Shown here in pieces: positions 24-39,843 of a stretch of DNA of 64,000 nucleotides. Source of the DNA: Terriglobia bacterium (lineage in GTDB: Bacteria > Acidobacteriota > Terriglobia > JAJPHL01); NCBI GenBank assembly GCA_021325275.1, contig JAJPHL010000030.1, positions 1 through 64,000 of the forward strand. The letters run 5' to 3'. A program made the translations under genes and the position numbers. The number at the start of each line of letters is the position of its first letter. The first letter of the stretch is position 1. The notes under the pieces were generated by a model that saw nothing but the letters and a program-made list of their open reading frames with translations, did not search any database and was not told the origin of the DNA.

Positions 24-135
24 GGGCTTTAGCCCCCGGCAAACAACGGCTGATCCACAAGCTTGCCCAGTGGAAAGCCGCAGGGGCTAAAGCCCCAGGA
101 AGAAGGCTTGCTGGCGGCACGGCTGAAGCCGTGCC
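24..135. repeat. Cluster of three short palindromic intergenic repeats
   Basis: Three perfect or near-perfect palindromes lie in the first 140 bases. One is GGGCTTTAGCCC at 24-35. A second is GGGGCTAAAGCCCC at 83-96. The third, at 116-135, has 9-bp arms GGCACGGCT/AGCCGTGCC and a 2-base loop. The first two carry the same core in opposite orientation. I see no convincing coding sequence in 1-257. Such palindromes look like dispersed REP-like repeats; that family assignment is inference. Confidence 0.6.
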
Positions 136-2289: not shown

Positions 2290-4473
2290 TCAGTGGAGCA
2301 AGCGAGCGGAATCGTCGATCGCCTTCGCCATTGCCGTGAGCGCCGCGGCCGTCTCCACGATTTGCGCCTTCGCTTCCGCCCAATTCTTTTGCTCGATCGC
2401 TTCGCGAACGCCCGGCAGCGTCTTCACGCCGTAGCCGGTGTAGAATCCCGGCGCGTAAATCCGATGACGATACCATTCGCGGCGGGGAAGTCCTTTGCCG
2501 AGCAGCGAGCGCTCCACATGCAGCAAGGCCGCGTCGAGCGCGGCGGAGGCACCGGCGCGCGAAAGGTCCGCGCTACCGAGCGCGGTTTCGTAATCAGCGG
2601 CGCTCTTCTTCAGCGCGGTGATGCCGTCCTTGAGCGGTGCGAAATCGAGCGCCGGCGCCGAGGAATCCCGCGGCAAACGCTCCACTTCGTCGACGTAGCG
2701 GCCGGCGGTCTCGGCGAAATCGCCGAACTCGTAAGGGATCACGTCGGCGTCGGCCATGCGCAGCACCGCGGTGGCGGACGCTTGCGCCAGAGTGCGTCCG
2801 TAAATGAAGGTGGAGTCCGAAAACTTCGTGTACCACGTGAACGAATCGTAGATCGAGTGATAGATGCCCGCGGAATTTCCGCCGTCGCCGCCGAATCCGA
2901 AATTCGCCGAGGGCACGCCGAGATGTTGCAGGAACGGCGTGTAATCCGATCCGGAACCGAGCGCGCCAATGCGCAGGTCCTTGCGATCGCGATCCGCGGC
3001 GTCTTGGCCGCCGCGTCCGCCACGTCCACCGCCGCCGGTGGCGGGTCCCAAACCTTCGGGCGGCCCGATTGGACGCTCGCGATTCATCGCCAAGAGCGAT
3101 TTCCCGCTGTTCGGATCGTTGACGTCGCGTTCGAGTTCGTTGATGAATCGCTCAAGAATGTGCGATCCACCCGCGCCGAGACGTCCCTTTGCCGTTGTAT
3201 CGGAGTTGAGATAGAACACTCCGCCTTTGTCGAGTTCAGCGGCGTGCTTCTCCGCCCATTCCGTCGATCCGAGCAAGCCCCATTCTTCGCCGTCCCAAGA
3301 CGCGATGATGATTGTACGGCGCGGACGCCATCCGGTCTTCAGCAATTCCGCGAAGGCGTGCGCTTCTTCGAGCATCGCCGATTGACCGCTCAACGGATCG
3401 TCGGCGCCGTTCACCCAGGCGTCGTGATGATTGCCGCGCACCACCCAATCGTTGGGGAAATCCTTGCCGGGAATGCGCACGATCACGTCGAAAAGCGGAC
3501 GCAGCTGCCAATCGAAGGCGAGATGCATGTGCACAACGGCGGGTCCGGGCCCGGTGTGATACGTGGTGGGCAGCGCGCCCTTCCACGCTTCAGGCACAAC
3601 CGGTCCGCGAAGTTCCTTGAGGATCGGCAACGCGTCTCCGTAAGAAACCGGCAGCACGGGAATCTTCATCAGCGTTTTCGACTCCGCGCGCGTCAGCTTG
3701 CGACCGCCTTTTTCGCCCGCCCATCCGGGCGTGAGCGGATCGCCGGGATAGGTGGGCATGTCCATCACGCTGCCGCGCTGCACGCCTTGCTCGGGGCGAT
3801 ACGGACCCTCCGGGTAAACGTCGCCGCGCTCGTATCCGTCGTCGCGCGGATCGGAGTAGATGATGCAGCCGACCGCGCCGTGTTCATGCGCCACCTTTGG
3901 CTTGATGCCGCGCCAACTCGCGCCGTAGCGCGCCAAGACAATTTTTCCTTTCACGTCCACTTGCAGGCGCGCGAGTTCGTCGTAGTCCTCGGGACGTCCA
4001 TAATTCACGTAGACCACTTGCGCGGTCACGTCGCCGTCGGCGGAATAGGCGTTGAAGGTGGGCAGCTGCTCGGCGTCGGAAGAATCTTTGTCCTCGCTGA
4101 TGACCGGCTCTTTCAGTTGCATGCGATAGTGCGTGGGCGCGGTCATCTCGACGCTGCGCTCCTTCGGATAGGGCATCAGGGCTTCAAATTCCTCGAGGTG
4201 CGCATCGAGTCCCCAGGATTTGTACTTCGCCAGAATGTACTCCGCGACGCGCTTGCTGTTCGGATGTCCCGCGTGATGCGGCTCTTCGCTCATGAACTTC
4301 ATGGCGTCGCGGATGCGATCGGCTTGCGGCACGGCTTGGAGTTTCTTCTCGAGCTCGCGCTCGGCGGCAGCGTGCTGCGGCGAGAATCCGCGAATCGCGG
4401 TGTCGGGCGCGCTTTGCGAGAGCAGCAGCGCGGCGAAAAGAGCAGGGACACAAAGACGAAGTGTGCGTTTCAT
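2290..4473 (-). CDS. M28 family metallopeptidase, glutamate carboxypeptidase II-like
   Basis: From the ATG at 4473 the protein is about 727 residues and starts MKRTLRLCVPALFAALLLSQ, a clear signal peptide. The longer reading frame upstream adds 29 residues without signal character, so I chose this start. A PA-domain insertion (about 170-260) precedes the catalytic M28 part. The di-zinc site is recognisable: NHHDAWVNGADDP (His, Asp), WDGEEWG (Glu pair), LNSDTT (Asp) and a late YHSIYDSF (His). This layout is that of the NAALADase/PSMA (GCPII) branch, exported exo-acting peptidases that remove C-terminal residues. A secreted protein gene lies 90 bp upstream on the same strand. Confidence 0.88.
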   Translation of the reverse strand: MKRTLRLCVPALFAALLLSQSAPDTAIRGFSPQHAAAERELEKKLQAVPQADRIRDAMKFMSEEPHHAGHPNSKRVAEYILAKYKSWGLDAHLEEFEALMPYPKERSVEMTAPTHYRMQLKEPVISEDKDSSDAEQLPTFNAYSADGDVTAQVVYVNYGRPEDYDELARLQVDVKGKIVLARYGASWRGIKPKVAHEHGAVGCIIYSDPRDDGYERGDVYPEGPYRPEQGVQRGSVMDMPTYPGDPLTPGWAGEKGGRKLTRAESKTLMKIPVLPVSYGDALPILKELRGPVVPEAWKGALPTTYHTGPGPAVVHMHLAFDWQLRPLFDVIVRIPGKDFPNDWVVRGNHHDAWVNGADDPLSGQSAMLEEAHAFAELLKTGWRPRRTIIIASWDGEEWGLLGSTEWAEKHAAELDKGGVFYLNSDTTAKGRLGAGGSHILERFINELERDVNDPNSGKSLLAMNRERPIGPPEGLGPATGGGGRGGRGGQDAADRDRKDLRIGALGSGSDYTPFLQHLGVPSANFGFGGDGGNSAGIYHSIYDSFTWYTKFSDSTFIYGRTLAQASATAVLRMADADVIPYEFGDFAETAGRYVDEVERLPRDSSAPALDFAPLKDGITALKKSAADYETALGSADLSRAGASAALDAALLHVERSLLGKGLPRREWYRHRIYAPGFYTGYGVKTLPGVREAIEQKNWAEAKAQIVETAAALTAMAKAIDDSARLLH

Positions 4474-4563
4474 GATGCGACTATCGTATGGGGAAGAGGC
4501 GGGAATTGTCCAGAGGGCGAGTTTCTTGCATGCTCGCGAGCCGGACCGCCGATGAATCAATCT

Positions 4564-5244
4564 TCAATGACTCGGGCCGTGATCCGCGGTACCGTCCGAC
4601 CACTTTTCAACCGGCACCATGAAGATCGTGAGCCGATCCTCCGGCACCTTGCCTGAGATAATCGGCGACCCCGGCACGTCGGCGCCCCACGCAGCGGCGT
4701 CGGCGAGCGGGACGAAGAACATCAAGTGCGGATGCCAGTGCACGCCAGCGTCGCCGAGGTATTGTTGCTTCGAAAGCATGTAGGACATCGCGCCGGTTTC
4801 GATCGACGGGATTTCCTTTTTATCGAGTGCTGCCTTGATTGCTTCGGCGATTTGCGCCTTCGAGCGTCCCGACAACGCCAGCTCGGATTTCTTGAGTGTC
4901 AGGGGCAGATAGGTGCGCACGGCGGGCGCGTTGAGGCAGATGGGTCCGCGCGTTTTGGGATTCCAAAATCCCGGATCGGCTTGTGGCGCGGACCAAGATC
5001 GCTCGACCAGGCAAACGAAGTCGTTCTTTCCTTTTGCGGCCGTTTCGTAGCCGCGTTTTCCCAGAACCATCACGGTGGCATCGCGCGACACGGCCTCCGG
5101 AGCCGCGCTCCGTGCCAAGGCGATCTCGGCGCTTCGCTCCATGAGGTATTGATCGGCGGGCGCCATATTCGGATAAGGCGAGTTCTGGGCTTGCGCGAGT
5201 CCCACCAGAACGAGCGCGAACAAGAAAGATCGGAATGAGATCAT
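4564..5244 (-). CDS. Secreted protein of unknown function with HWHPHLMFF motif
   Basis: The 226-residue protein opens with MISFRSFLFALVLVGLAQAQ, a standard signal peptide cut near AQA. The mature part has no domain I can name. It contains a histidine-rich word GVHWHPHLMFFVP near residue 167, which could bind a metal, and ends with a hydrophilic tail. It lies upstream of and on the same strand as the M28 peptidase gene, with about 90 bp between them, so co-transcription is possible. I recognise the general type as a conserved acidobacterial secreted protein but cannot assign a role. Confidence 0.7.
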   Translation of the reverse strand: MISFRSFLFALVLVGLAQAQNSPYPNMAPADQYLMERSAEIALARSAAPEAVSRDATVMVLGKRGYETAAKGKNDFVCLVERSWSAPQADPGFWNPKTRGPICLNAPAVRTYLPLTLKKSELALSGRSKAQIAEAIKAALDKKEIPSIETGAMSYMLSKQQYLGDAGVHWHPHLMFFVPLADAAAWGADVPGSPIISGKVPEDRLTIFMVPVEKWSDGTADHGPSH

Positions 5245-5266
5245 AGTGCGCCCAATCTAGCACACC

Positions 5267-5677
5267 TTAAAGGAAGGGATTTAGGACTCTCACAGAGCCG
5301 CACTGCTGGCCGGAGGACAAATCTTCAGTCCACAGGATTGAGCATCCGAGTTCGGTGGCGCTGTTGAGGATCAGAGCGTCCAACCAGGGAATTTGGTGGC
5401 GGTCTTTGAGATCGATTGCAGAGAGAATGCTGGCATGCGAAGGTTGATGGACGGTCCAGTGATCCAACTCAGCGATTGTCGCGCGTAGTTCTTCGGCAGG
5501 CAAAGGTAGTTTTCGCGTCGCAGTGGAGTAAAGCTCGATCAAGACTTGAGTGCTGATCGCGCCTGCACCAGTTTCAAATAAGCGCGCTATCAAGGACTTC
5601 GCCTTGTGGCGTTTCGAACCCGCCGTCAGATCCAAGGAATAAAAGAAGATGTTGGTGTCAACGAACTCAACGCTCAT
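5267..5677 (-). CDS. PIN-domain toxin, VapC family
   Basis: Starting at the ATG at 5677 the protein is 136 residues and begins MSVEFVDTNIFFY, the typical first strand of a PIN domain with its first acidic residue (D7). Further acidic residues are seen in the STQVLIELY segment (Glu), in PWLDALILNSA (Asp) and in LWTEDL. PIN toxins are Mg-dependent ribonucleases that cut initiator tRNA or other RNAs. The start overlaps the end of the antitoxin gene by 11 bp, as expected for a type II toxin-antitoxin operon. A start 24 bases upstream (5701) is possible but less like family members. Confidence 0.85.
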   Translation of the reverse strand: MSVEFVDTNIFFYSLDLTAGSKRHKAKSLIARLFETGAGAISTQVLIELYSTATRKLPLPAEELRATIAELDHWTVHQPSHASILSAIDLKDRHQIPWLDALILNSATELGCSILWTEDLSSGQQCGSVRVLNPFL

Positions 5678-35244: not shown

Positions 35245-35844
35245 ATGAGGAGCGGGGCCTTCTTCCTTCTGACAACGCTGGGGTTTCTGATCTTATGGAC
35301 CCAGCCCGCCGTTCCGCTGTTCCCCGTCTGCCGGCCGCCTGCGTCGGATTATCTGGCGAACTTCCCGTATTTCGCTCAGCTTCAGAGCAGTTGGTGCTGG
35401 GCCGCCACCGGCCAGATGGTGATGCAGTTTCTTGGGAAGAGCGTTCAGCAATGCCAGCAAGCGGCGGATCAAACCGGCTTGGCTTGCTGCGGTATGCCGT
35501 TTCCCGTGGGCTGCGACGCCGGCAGTTGGCCGCTCTTCGAGGAATATGGATTTTCCTACGACATGATGGCGGGGAAGGTCTTGACCGAAGCGCAAATCAA
35601 GGCCCAGATTCATTGCTCCCGAAAACCGATCGCGCACGCCTACGTTTACGCGCAGGGCGTGTGGGACGGCCACATGGTGGTCGCTTACGGATATTCGTGG
35701 GATCCCGTGCAGCACATAACCTTTATCGAGGTATACGATCCCGACTGGCAACAAGCGCCGGCGATCCCCTACGATGAGTACGCACGCGGCCCGGCGACGA
35801 ACTCCGCGCCGTGGCGCGACTATTACAACATCACGAAGAAATGA
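35245..35844 (+). CDS. Exported papain-like cysteine protease (AvrRpt2/C39-like)
   Basis: From the ATG at 35245 the protein is 199 residues and starts MRSGAFFLLTTLGFLILWTQ, a signal peptide. The catalytic cysteine is C51 in QSSWCWAATGQMVM, the CWAA signature of papain-like (AvrRpt2-type) peptidases. The catalytic histidine is probably H143 in WDGHMVVAYGY, with D165 in EVYDPD as third member. Five further cysteines (70, 81, 82, 90, 124) could form disulfides in the periplasm. The stop overlaps the ATG of the next gene (ATGA at 35841-35844). Its target is unknown; two small lysine-rich proteins are encoded convergently just beyond. Confidence 0.8.
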   Translation: MRSGAFFLLTTLGFLILWTQPAVPLFPVCRPPASDYLANFPYFAQLQSSWCWAATGQMVMQFLGKSVQQCQQAADQTGLACCGMPFPVGCDAGSWPLFEEYGFSYDMMAGKVLTEAQIKAQIHCSRKPIAHAYVYAQGVWDGHMVVAYGYSWDPVQHITFIEVYDPDWQQAPAIPYDEYARGPATNSAPWRDYYNITKK

Positions 35845-36527
35845 AGACCATGAAGAGATTTGCTGGCGCGAAATCCGTGTTCCTGATCGTGATGGTAGGC
35901 GTGTTTTTGCGAGCCCAGAGCGCGCCGCCGGCTCCCGATTGGCTGGGCGTAAATATCAAAGTCACGCTGGAATCCGTGCAGGCGCCCGCGCAGAGCGCGC
36001 TGCCGGTGTTGAAGCGGCTGGCGGCCGATCCGCAGCGTCCGAACAAGCTTGGATTCGAGAATACGCAGGAAATCGATCGCGCCACGCTCGGAACGCCGAT
36101 CGTGATCTTCGCCGTGGTCACCGAGAAACTCAAAATCTTCCACGCCGGCAGCGACACGTTCGGCGTTCTGGACCAAACGCCGAGTTCGGTGATCTTTCCG
36201 GTTTACGTCCACGATCAGGTGCGCGGCGATCAGGTGCGTTCGATGATCCGGCTCACCAGACGCACCGATGGCTGGCACGTCGCCGCGTTCGGCGAATCAG
36301 GCCTGGCGAAAGCGATCGCGCAGGCGATCGGCCAGAGATGCGCGCAGTATTTCGGCGTTTCCGTTGCCGCCGCAAATCTTTTTTACCTTGGGTGCACGGC
36401 CCAAGGATTTCAGTTGACGGCCACGTCGGATCAGTACGGTTTCAAGTCCGGCGAGACGCGTCCGGCCGCCGAGGTTTTCCTGAAACTTGCACCACTGGCC
36501 GCCGTCCCGGCGCGGGGACCGCGCTAA
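35841..36527 (+). CDS. Secreted protein of unknown function coupled to the cysteine protease
   Basis: The ATG overlaps the protease stop (ATGA), giving 228 residues that begin MKTMKRFAGAKSVFLIVMV, a signal peptide ending near LRAQS. I recognise no domain. The mature part has a conserved-looking alternation of beta-like segments (GTPIVIFAVVTEKLKIF and SVIFPVYVHD), a late pair of short motifs, GQRCAQYFGV and YLGCTAQG, with two cysteines, and a proline-rich end. Tight coupling suggests it is an inhibitor, chaperone, substrate or partner of the protease. Confidence 0.7.
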   Translation: MKTMKRFAGAKSVFLIVMVGVFLRAQSAPPAPDWLGVNIKVTLESVQAPAQSALPVLKRLAADPQRPNKLGFENTQEIDRATLGTPIVIFAVVTEKLKIFHAGSDTFGVLDQTPSSVIFPVYVHDQVRGDQVRSMIRLTRRTDGWHVAAFGESGLAKAIAQAIGQRCAQYFGVSVAAANLFYLGCTAQGFQLTATSDQYGFKSGETRPAAEVFLKLAPLAAVPARGPR

Positions 36528-36575: not shown

Positions 36576-36980
36576 TTACGGATCGATAATCACATCTCCA
36601 CCGCCGCCACCTGGACCGCCGCCCCCCAGGTTGCACGCCACGCCGTTCTTGGCGAGCGTATACGGATAGGCGAAGCCATTGTTCCTCGCGGTCTTGTCCA
36701 CTTTCTGCGTTACCGGGCTGCCGCCTGACACGTCAAACTGGTCGCCGGGGTTCAGAAAACCGGTGAACGGGCTGCCGATGGGCCATGTCACGGTGTACGT
36801 GACTCCGGTTTCATTCGTGCCGAAGATCATCTTGTCGCCATGCTTTTCGTGAGGCTGCGGATCGCTGGGATTGCAGTTCGCGAAAAAAATGCCTTTGGTC
36901 TGCGCCTGACCCTTAATCGGCTTCTTGATTGGTTTCTTGATCGGACGCTTCGGCTTCTTGGGTTTTGGTTTTTTTCTCAT
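36576..36980 (-). CDS. Small basic protein with C-terminal GGGDVIIDP tail (134 aa)
   Basis: The 134-residue protein has no signal peptide. It starts with a lysine/proline-rich tract (MRKKPKPKKPKRPIKK, about residues 1-24), continues with a hydrophilic body containing two cysteines (35 and 116) and ends with a run of glycines and DVIIDP. A strong GGAGGAGG Shine-Dalgarno lies just before the ATG. It lies 12 bp after the next gene, which has the same tail, so both probably share a message. The tail is encoded by different codons in the two genes. I know no family for it; DNA/RNA binding by the basic tract is speculation. Confidence 0.7.
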   Translation of the reverse strand: MRKKPKPKKPKRPIKKPIKKPIKGQAQTKGIFFANCNPSDPQPHEKHGDKMIFGTNETGVTYTVTWPIGSPFTGFLNPGDQFDVSGGSPVTQKVDKTARNNGFAYPYTLAKNGVACNLGGGGPGGGGGDVIIDP

Positions 36981-36992
36981 TTTCGCCTCCTC

Positions 36993-37127
36993 CTATTGGT
37001 TCGCGCTTGGGTCGATGATCACGTCGCCGCCGCCGGATTTCTTCTGGCCCGACCGTGTCGGCGGCTTTTTGGGTCCCCTGCTACCTTTGGATTTACTCTT
37101 CGGTTTCGTTGTTTTCTTTTTAGCCAT
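36993..37127 (-). CDS. Very small lysine-rich protein with GGGDVIIDP tail (44 aa)
   Basis: The ATG at 37125-37127 is preceded by GGGAGG about 8 bases upstream. The 44 residues begin MAKKKTTKPKSKSKG and end SGGGDVIIDPSANQ. The first 34 residues are almost all lysine, serine, threonine, proline, arginine and glycine, and there is no signal peptide or hydrophobic segment. The tail GGGDVIIDP is the same as in the gene 12 bp downstream. The DVIIDP codons differ synonymously in four of six positions between the two genes. It lies 52 bp after the kinase-TPR gene on the same strand. No known family. Confidence 0.65.
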   Translation of the reverse strand: MAKKKTTKPKSKSKGSRGPKKPPTRSGQKKSGGGDVIIDPSANQ

Positions 37128-37179: not shown

Positions 37180-39843
37180 CTACCGCTTGGCCGTTTGTGT
37201 CAAACGGCATGATTGTCCTCCGAGCGGAAGTTTGGATTGCTTGCGTAGAATCTCCCGATACCGCGGATCGTTGTGTAGCAGATCGAAATCGGGCGCGTCG
37301 TCGACTTCAGAGAGCGGTTCGCCCGCGGCAAAGGCGCGCGCGATCAGTTCGAGCGTGCCGTCGCGATCGCCCAGTTGTGCTCTGGTGAAAGCGGCGGTCA
37401 GCAAAACGCCGCCATTGTCCGGTGCCAGCGACAGTGCCTGGCTCAAGTACGACCGCGCCGCATCGCCGTCACCGAGCCGCGCCGAAAAACGCGCGAGATC
37501 CGCGGCAACTTTTGCTTCGCGCGGATTCACTCGCAATTCGTCCTGCGCTAATTCGCGCGCCCGGCGGTAGGCGGTAGCGGCGGCGGCGCGCTGATTCGCA
37601 AAATAGCGCGCTTGCGCCAGATTGCCCCAAATCGGGTAACGCTTCGGTCCGAAACTGATGGCCTGCTGGAAGACGCTCGCCGCTTCCGCGTAGCGGTGCA
37701 AAGAGAGATCGGCGACGCCCAAATTGTTCAATCCGGAATCGGTCACGCGAATGGCCAGCGACTTTTCGAGGACACGCACGGCCTCCGCGTAATCGCCTTC
37801 GGTGATCAGAGCCCCGCCCAAATTCGAATATCCGCGAAAGCCATCCGGAGCCAATGTGACGACCTTACGGAACGCATCGGCCGCCTGCGGATAGCATGTC
37901 TGCTGCATGTAGAAGGCGCCGAGCCAACTGTACGCCGCGTAATACTGTGGACGCTCGACGGTCGCCGCGCGAAAGGCGGCTTCCGCGTCGTTCAGGCGAT
38001 TCAATTTGCCGTACGCTTCGGCCAATCCGCGCGCCGCCAAGTCGTTGGCGGGAGCTTTCGACAAGGCCAGCCGGTAGTGCGCCACCGCTTCCTCATATTG
38101 TCCCTGTGCGGCGAGCGCTTGACCGAGGCACGTTTGTCCTTCGGGAAGGGATCCGTCCAAGTCCACCGCTCGTTGGCACGCTTTCAGCGCGTCGTCGAGC
38201 CATTTCTTGTCACGCGTGACCCTGAACTTCCGTTGGTCGGCGTCGGCGATCGCGGCGTAGGCGAGCGCGAACTTTGGGTCTTGCCTCACGGCGTCTTCAA
38301 AGAGCAAAATCGCCGACGCCAGGTTCTCGGCCTTGTCTGATTCCTGCAAGTAGCCGCGTCCTTGCGTGTAAAGGTCCAAGGCCGGAGAGGGCGGCTTCGC
38401 TGGATTTTGCTTCGTGGCGCCTTGTGGAGGAGACGGCAAACTCACGTTCAGGATTCGCGCCGCGGCGGCGACGATTTCGTTCTGGAGCGCGTTGGAATCC
38501 GCGAGACTCGCGATGATTGTCTCGCTGCGCGGCGGCTCCGCATCACCGGTACTCACTACGCTCAACTGCACGCGCGCTTGTCCGTTCGATCGCTCGAACG
38601 CCGCAGTGAGCACGAGCTTCGCTCCCAGTTCCTCGCGCGCGGCACGCGCCGTTTTCACGCGACGGTCCAACACTTCTCGCAGCGGAACCACATTCAAGTC
38701 CGCGCTCTTGGCCAAGCGCGACGCCAGCATTTCCGCGACGCCGTCGCAGTACGCTCGATCCTCCGGATGCACCGGGCTCTCGGCGCAAGGCAGCACCGCA
38801 AGGTTCGGCCGCGACGTGGCATGTGCGATGCGCCCGCGCAGCGGCACCCACAGCGCCGCAATATTGAAGATCACCAGGGCCGCCACCATCGCGATTCGTT
38901 TGAACGGCCACGCCGACTGCGTGGGCGCGGCCGCGGCTTGCGCCAGCGCGGCGCGCAGTTCTTCAATCGACGCGTAGCGCAGCTCGGTTTTTTTCTCGAG
39001 ACACCGCTCGACAATTTCCTCGATGCTCGCCGGAATCGACGGATCAACCTCGCAGATCGGCAGGGGAGTGTCACGCATTTGACGGAGCAAGACCGCGGAG
39101 CGGCTTTCCGCAAACAAAGGATGCTCGCCGGTCAAGGATTCGTAGAGGATCAAGCCGGCCGAGTAGATGTCGGACTGCAAACCCGCCGGCCGCCCTGCCG
39201 CTTGTTCGGGCGACATGTACAGCGGCGTGCCCACGATGGCGTGCGTGAGCGTATCGTCGTCGCGCACGGTTTGCGCGATCCCGAAGTCCATCACCTTCAC
39301 TTGGCCGTCGGCCTGCACCATAACATTCGCGGGCTTCAGGTCGCGGTGGATGATTCCGCGGCGATGCGCGGCTTCAAGTCCCGCGCAAATGCCGTCGATG
39401 ATGCGCAACGCTTCCCGCCACGGAAGCTTGCGGCGTCGCCCGAGGAGCGATCGTAAACTCTCCCCGTCCACCGATTCCATCGTGATGAACGCGGTCGTGC
39501 CGGCGCGCTGAAATTCGTGGATGCGGCAAACGTTTTGGTGGGTAATCTGGCGCGCCAAGCGCAGCTCGTTCTTGAATCGCTCCATGACGCCGGGACTGGT
39601 GGCCAGATCGGGCCGCAGCAGCTTGATGGCGACGATGTCGCCGGTTTCGCGATCCCGTCCTTGGTAGACGATACCGCTGGCGCCGCGCCCCAACGCGCGG
39701 AGAACTTCGTAGCGCGCGGAGATCTCGGGGGGAAGATCGGCAAAGAACTGGGCAGACGCCCCGGAAGCGACCGGGTCGTAGGAGTCTTGCGTCTCAAGCG
39801 CGTGACTTGCCGCCTGGTCGACCACGGGAGTTCCGTCGGCCAT
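37180..39843 (-). CDS. Membrane Ser/Thr protein kinase with C-terminal TPR repeats
   Basis: The 887-residue protein has an intact Hanks-type kinase domain at about 45-305: glycine loop LGRGASGIVYQGRD, K74 in VAIKLL, HRDLKPANV at about 166, DFG at 186 and MSPEQ. One membrane helix is near 316-336 (MVAALVIFNIAALWVP). The rest (about 345-875) is periplasmic or cytoplasmic-side sensor: first a beta-alpha region (LAVLPCAESPVHPED, resembling an adenylate-cyclase-adjacent or TolB-N-type domain), then about nine TPR units. It should phosphorylate unknown cytoplasmic targets on sensing a signal. The two tiny basic proteins follow it downstream. Confidence 0.9.
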   Translation of the reverse strand: MADGTPVVDQAASHALETQDSYDPVASGASAQFFADLPPEISARYEVLRALGRGASGIVYQGRDRETGDIVAIKLLRPDLATSPGVMERFKNELRLARQITHQNVCRIHEFQRAGTTAFITMESVDGESLRSLLGRRRKLPWREALRIIDGICAGLEAAHRRGIIHRDLKPANVMVQADGQVKVMDFGIAQTVRDDDTLTHAIVGTPLYMSPEQAAGRPAGLQSDIYSAGLILYESLTGEHPLFAESRSAVLLRQMRDTPLPICEVDPSIPASIEEIVERCLEKKTELRYASIEELRAALAQAAAAPTQSAWPFKRIAMVAALVIFNIAALWVPLRGRIAHATSRPNLAVLPCAESPVHPEDRAYCDGVAEMLASRLAKSADLNVVPLREVLDRRVKTARAAREELGAKLVLTAAFERSNGQARVQLSVVSTGDAEPPRSETIIASLADSNALQNEIVAAAARILNVSLPSPPQGATKQNPAKPPSPALDLYTQGRGYLQESDKAENLASAILLFEDAVRQDPKFALAYAAIADADQRKFRVTRDKKWLDDALKACQRAVDLDGSLPEGQTCLGQALAAQGQYEEAVAHYRLALSKAPANDLAARGLAEAYGKLNRLNDAEAAFRAATVERPQYYAAYSWLGAFYMQQTCYPQAADAFRKVVTLAPDGFRGYSNLGGALITEGDYAEAVRVLEKSLAIRVTDSGLNNLGVADLSLHRYAEAASVFQQAISFGPKRYPIWGNLAQARYFANQRAAAATAYRRARELAQDELRVNPREAKVAADLARFSARLGDGDAARSYLSQALSLAPDNGGVLLTAAFTRAQLGDRDGTLELIARAFAAGEPLSEVDDAPDFDLLHNDPRYREILRKQSKLPLGGQSCRLTQTAKR

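Follow-up and report, generated by a model that had tools for sequence, protein, structure and literature searches.

A divergent small protein behind a membrane Ser/Thr-kinase-TPR gene and its probable place in a family of kinase-linked small proteins in Acidobacteriota

We analysed a 64,000-nt stretch of a Terriglobia bacterium genome (contig JAJPHL010000030.1, positions 1 to 64,000; hereafter the window), in which two small open reading frames, P1 and P2, lie behind a gene for a Ser/Thr protein kinase with TPR repeats (Table 1). The original prediction described two adjacent ORFs of 44 and 134 aa with a gap of 12 nt, strong Shine-Dalgarno sequences and a common GGGDVIIDP, and this arrangement is confirmed on the minus strand; each of the two ORFs has the look of a genuine gene. 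The order on this strand is kinase stop codon, 52 nt, P1, 12 nt, and P2. Both proteins have Lys-rich starts, and the C-terminal end of P1 is GGGDVIIDPSANQ. In a Pfam scan, the 887-aa kinase-TPR protein matches numerous TPR models as well as Pkinase (E 9.5e-53), and a hydrophobic stretch, RIAMVAALVIFNIAALW, lies C-terminal to the kinase domain in its sequence. No Pfam or NCBIfam model matches P1 or P2, and P2 has one chance-level PHROG match. On the plus strand, between positions 35245 and 36527 of the window, a protease ORF is followed by a secreted ORF, and both converge on P2. The pair had been said to converge on a secreted cysteine protease; the convergence holds, but the direct neighbour of P2 is the secreted ORF, and the protease lies one gene further away.

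Table 1. Features at the P1/P2 locus (positions in the window, or residues of P2 where stated)
Feature	Position	Strand	Description
Kinase-TPR gene	37180..39843	-	Upstream gene of the presumed operon; 887 aa; Ser/Thr protein kinase, hydrophobic segment, TPR
Shine-Dalgarno of P1	37136..37141	-	GGGAGG; from the sequence
P1	36993..37127	-	44-aa ORF; Lys/Ser/Pro-rich N-terminus, GGGDVIIDP and SANQ; core domain absent
GGGDVIIDP tail codons in P1	37008..37034	-	
Shine-Dalgarno of P2	36986..36993	-	GGAGGAGG; from the sequence; its first G is also part of the P1 stop codon
P2	36576..36980	-	134-aa ORF ending in GGGDVIIDP; probable divergent member of the kinase-linked family
Polybasic N-terminus of P2	residues 1-27		
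Predicted cupredoxin-like core of P2	residues ~35-113		
Gly-rich linker of P2	residues ~118-128		
DVIIDP tail of P2			Follows the linker
GGGDVIIDP tail codons in P2	36579..36605	-	
Hypothetical secreted ORF	about 35851-36527	+	Convergent neighbour of P2; no family match
Secreted papain-like cysteine protease ORF	35245 to 35844	+	Weak Peptidase_C70 match, below the curated Pfam cut-off

We compared the tail codons of the two genes. P1 and P2 differ at six nucleotides over the nine common codons, four of them in the DVIIDP part, and all six differences (6/6) are at third positions, an outcome with a chance probability of 2.8e-4 for six random differences. Because the differences are all at third positions, the codon pattern shows selection on the tail peptide since the P1 and P2 copies diverged, as had been proposed from the synonymous changes in DVIIDP. 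The tail DNA pattern has only two sites in the 6.86-Mb genome, those of P1 and P2. A strict GGDVIIDP pattern matches in one other genome among the 396 of the phylum, and a pattern for a GGD[VI]I[VI]DP-like tail followed by a stop codon gives a single match among about 85,000 species genomes, which we attribute to chance because its ORF is apparently antisense to a gene. Within the genomes searched, the tail as an exact string is private to this genome. A widespread tag was considered and rejected, as the GGDVIIDP DNA patterns gave the two genome sites and elsewhere chance-level matches; the tail is not found on unrelated proteins in these searches, which leaves the suggestion of a general recognition tag without support.

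As a direct query, P2 finds no relatives in 61 genomes or genome contigs and nothing meaningful in plasmids, and the family was reached through the kinase neighbourhood. The best homologue of the kinase-TPR protein among relatives is in G005 (38% identity), and a small ORF (L009) lies directly 3' of its gene. With the L009 protein as query and P2 unused, ten more loci were found in 151 genomes of the class, and two of them (L018 and L020) gave no member. The readable members from this search are about 100-150 aa long, have the common motifs V.W, F.V.F, [ST]PF, and Y.Y[TS]V, and carry tails such as LDPQVIIDK, LDPDVIIKG, and DPQIIVR. Profile searches give matches in 49 of 399 genomes of the class and in 21 of 396 across the phylum, both tallies taking in weak matches and the window's own genome; none was found in a family search of plasmids. 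The profiles that found loci L021-L050 and L056-L077 had P2 as one of their 10 or 23 rows, but a P2-free nine-seed profile directly accepts 28 of the 30 members that were not seeds, and accepts all of them after one further round.

The start codons of 32 of the 39 members lie -4 to +105 nt from the stop codon of a Ser/Thr-kinase-TPR gene, and one further member comes second in a tandem arrangement of two. All upstream proteins scanned in full (7/7) contain Pkinase and TPR domains by Pfam. The small gene and the kinase-TPR gene are thus co-localised across the phylum, and the link to this gene, which the original prediction had noted, is borne out and recurs among relatives. At the other end of the protein, DPx[VILFMG]x[VIF] lies within the last 16 residues in 37 of the 39 members, with DPGVIIDP (the end of L045) and DPNVIIDK as further examples, and VIID[PKH] occurs near the C-terminus in 4 of the 39 members versus 0 of 2,180 background ORFs. 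The tail, for which no family had been known, is most likely the C-terminal end of this one, whose members carry it in forms that resemble DP-x-[VI]-x-[VI]. A Pfam or NCBIfam scan of the members finds no common model. Taken from these searches, the predicted proteins, about 40 in number, are an uncatalogued family that is widespread in Acidobacteriota. To our knowledge, no small partner gene downstream of a bacterial Ser/Thr kinase with TPR has been described, and a literature search for such a downstream partner of kinase-TPR genes returned nothing relevant.

Several family loci have features of their own. Tandem family copies behind a kinase are present at L034 and L057/L084; at L034 (G645) and at L084 (G243, 4695-5539), one kinase-TPR gene is followed by two tandem family genes. 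At L064 (G219), L071 (G159), and L076 (G405), the start codon of the family gene and the stop codon of the kinase gene overlap (-4 nt), which suggests translational coupling. The kinase-TPR gene upstream of L075/L088 (G017) is apparently in two reading frames, one for an N-terminal basic part and one for a C-terminal part, possibly as a result of a frameshift. The members at L087 (G472, 4356-4745) and L026 (G041) have signal/TM-like N-termini and no adjoining kinase, and in these two genomes, which belong to a single genus, they lie upstream of a 212-aa ORF and an apparent gene for a DNA primase.

We tested P2 independently with profiles started from nine P2-free seeds. The nine-seed profile recruits 37 of the 39 members, and all 39 are recruited after one more round. 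Against the 37-member P2-free profile, P2 scores E 1.2e-5 (single-sequence test), and none of 20,000 core shuffles scores as well; against the 39-member P2-free profile, it scores E 2e-5 (single-sequence test), and 2 of 20,000 shuffles score as well. With the nine-seed profile alone, 1,222 of 20,000 shuffles score as well as P2, and since this profile fails to tell P2 from shuffles, P2 is to be regarded as a distant member. Its identity to the other members is only 15-27%, and it is without the family's conserved Trp. Core motifs are seen in P2 as YTVTW, GSPF, and YPYTL, and alignments A1 and A2 also back its place in the family. The profile-aligned region of P2 (residues 35-113) ends before the tail, which therefore counts as separate evidence; the VIID strand of the tail matches VIIDP of L045 and VIIDK of L017, but a Gly-rich run replaces the preceding DP. 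P2 also has the same-strand position behind a Pkinase-TPR gene, with P1 in between. We consider it probable (roughly 0.7) that P2 belongs, as a divergent member, to an Acidobacteriota family of small proteins encoded behind membrane Ser/Thr-kinase-TPR genes and presumably acting with the kinase.

The basic N-termini allow another reading, in which P1 and P2 are small nucleic-acid-binding proteins defined by their Lys-rich segment. Strongly basic N-termini are indeed present in P1, P2, and several relatives (those like P2's are in L017, L019, L064, and L071), but relatives in the same slot often have no basic segment or a signal/TM-like one. Because the N-terminus is absent or signal/TM-like in these other members, nucleic-acid binding would not be the general role of the family, and we regard this reading as quite improbable for the pair. 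Still less credible is a RiPP-like precursor-peptide pair cleaved at Gly-Gly by the nearby cysteine protease, to which we give almost no weight. The small basic ORFs, the GG ahead of the tail, and the presence of a papain-like protease at a distance of two genes would fit it, but the family of P2 has a conserved domain, and its other members lack the Gly run. The pair is flanked by the kinase-TPR gene, the hypothetical secreted ORF, and a weakly C70-like protease, with no modification, transport, or export genes among them, and the protease gene is convergent with P2 and has a Pfam match that is below the curated cut-off. We saw no cysteine protease at any of the 12 family loci that were read completely, where ORFs were assessed by inspection and not by domain search, and the proposed co-occurrence with the protease does not appear in the relatives examined.

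We compared the family profile with solved structures. The matches are mostly to cupredoxins (Cu nitrite reductase, amicyanin, and plastocyanin) at E values of 0.009 to 1.6, individually weak, and they agree on one fold. The YDYHC strand of amicyanin aligns with the Y.Y[TS]V strand of the family. None of the copper ligands His, Cys, His, and Met is conserved in the family alignments A1-A4, so that the cupredoxin-like domain would be degenerate and probably metal-free. These weak but consistent matches point to a degenerate beta-sandwich of the plastocyanin/amicyanin type without copper ligands. A single-sequence structure model of P2 (pLDDT 39) was too poor for use. Most likely, the tail forms the last beta-strand of this degenerate domain, in a protein accessory to the kinase, and the amicyanin counterpart of DVIIDP would be the strand that follows the copper loop.

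P1 does not match the family profile (E about 0.07, score below 0). It starts 52 nt past the kinase stop codon, in the slot usually taken by the family gene. Its Lys-rich N-terminus is of the type found in the family. P1 and P2 have in common a Gly run ahead of the tail that was not seen in the 39 other members, which argues for a P1/P2 duplication in this lineage. Read most simply, P1 would be a second, tandem copy that has lost its core domain and retained the N-terminus and the tail in frame. The third-position pattern leaves the date of the core loss unfixed, because the same pattern would be expected of a copy that kept its full length until recently. Recent core loss would also yield the observed tail codons if P1 were a decaying remnant without function and only P2 mattered, and P1 lacks a core, is without a homologue elsewhere, and consists mainly of low-complexity sequence. 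However, its frame is intact, its Shine-Dalgarno sequence is strong, and all six tail differences from P2 are synonymous, and we judge the remnant reading unlikely, although it carries the most weight among the alternatives.

A functional P1 is the basis of a further alternative. TPR domains bind C-terminal peptides, such as the EEVD of Hsp90 and PTS1, and the tail could be a linear docking motif for the TPR domain of the kinase itself, with P1 as a functional tail-only competitor or tuner of P2. Nearly all members of the family, which is tied to a TPR kinase, have the tail at their very C-terminus, and P1, which occupies the canonical slot with a strong Shine-Dalgarno sequence, has kept the tail without the core, its codons there differing from those of P2 at third positions only. 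However, a terminal beta-strand accounts for the conservation without docking, and the codon pattern of P1 also fits a long-lived full-length copy with recent core loss. We found no other P1-like ORF at any family locus, and the tail is also kept in members that are not linked to a kinase (L023 and L026). We therefore hold docking to be improbable, and we rate a shade lower the specific proposal that a DP-x-VI-I-x-P tail docks on the TPR region of the membrane kinase encoded next to it, with P1, made of a basic segment and the tail, as a minimal modulator of a bacterial eukaryotic-like kinase.

Under the preferred reading of P2 as a divergent family member, the small protein would be an accessory protein that is translated directly downstream of the membrane kinase-TPR protein and acts with the kinase. 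It could be a ligand, a regulator, or a substrate of the kinase; we infer the physical partnership, and likewise its direction. A signal or TM segment would place it at the membrane, and in P2-type members the polybasic N-terminus may do so. Acidobacteriota have many Ser/Thr kinases of the eukaryotic-like type, for which few signals or partners are known, and a conserved small gene behind kinase-TPR genes across the phylum, from a family without a Pfam or NCBIfam model, provides a concrete and testable partner candidate. The core-less P1 offers a natural test for the function of the tail alone.

Compared with known systems, the family resembles the cupredoxins in that its profile matches their strands from 'v..gd.V.W' through 'tY.Y', and in its domain of about 100 residues, which would be beta-rich and have a hydrophobic strand at the end. 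It differs from them at the position of YDYHC in amicyanin, which is YKYTV in the family and YPYTL in P2, and in its gene neighbourhood, as the family genes sit behind a kinase and not with electron-transfer genes. The conserved C-terminal tail beside a TPR protein recalls the TPR-bound C-terminal peptides, but the sequence of the family tail is unrelated to theirs, and the likeness is an analogy only. The kinase upstream of P1 and P2 has the Pkinase and TPR architecture of known bacterial kinases, and the same architecture is found at the seven relatives checked.
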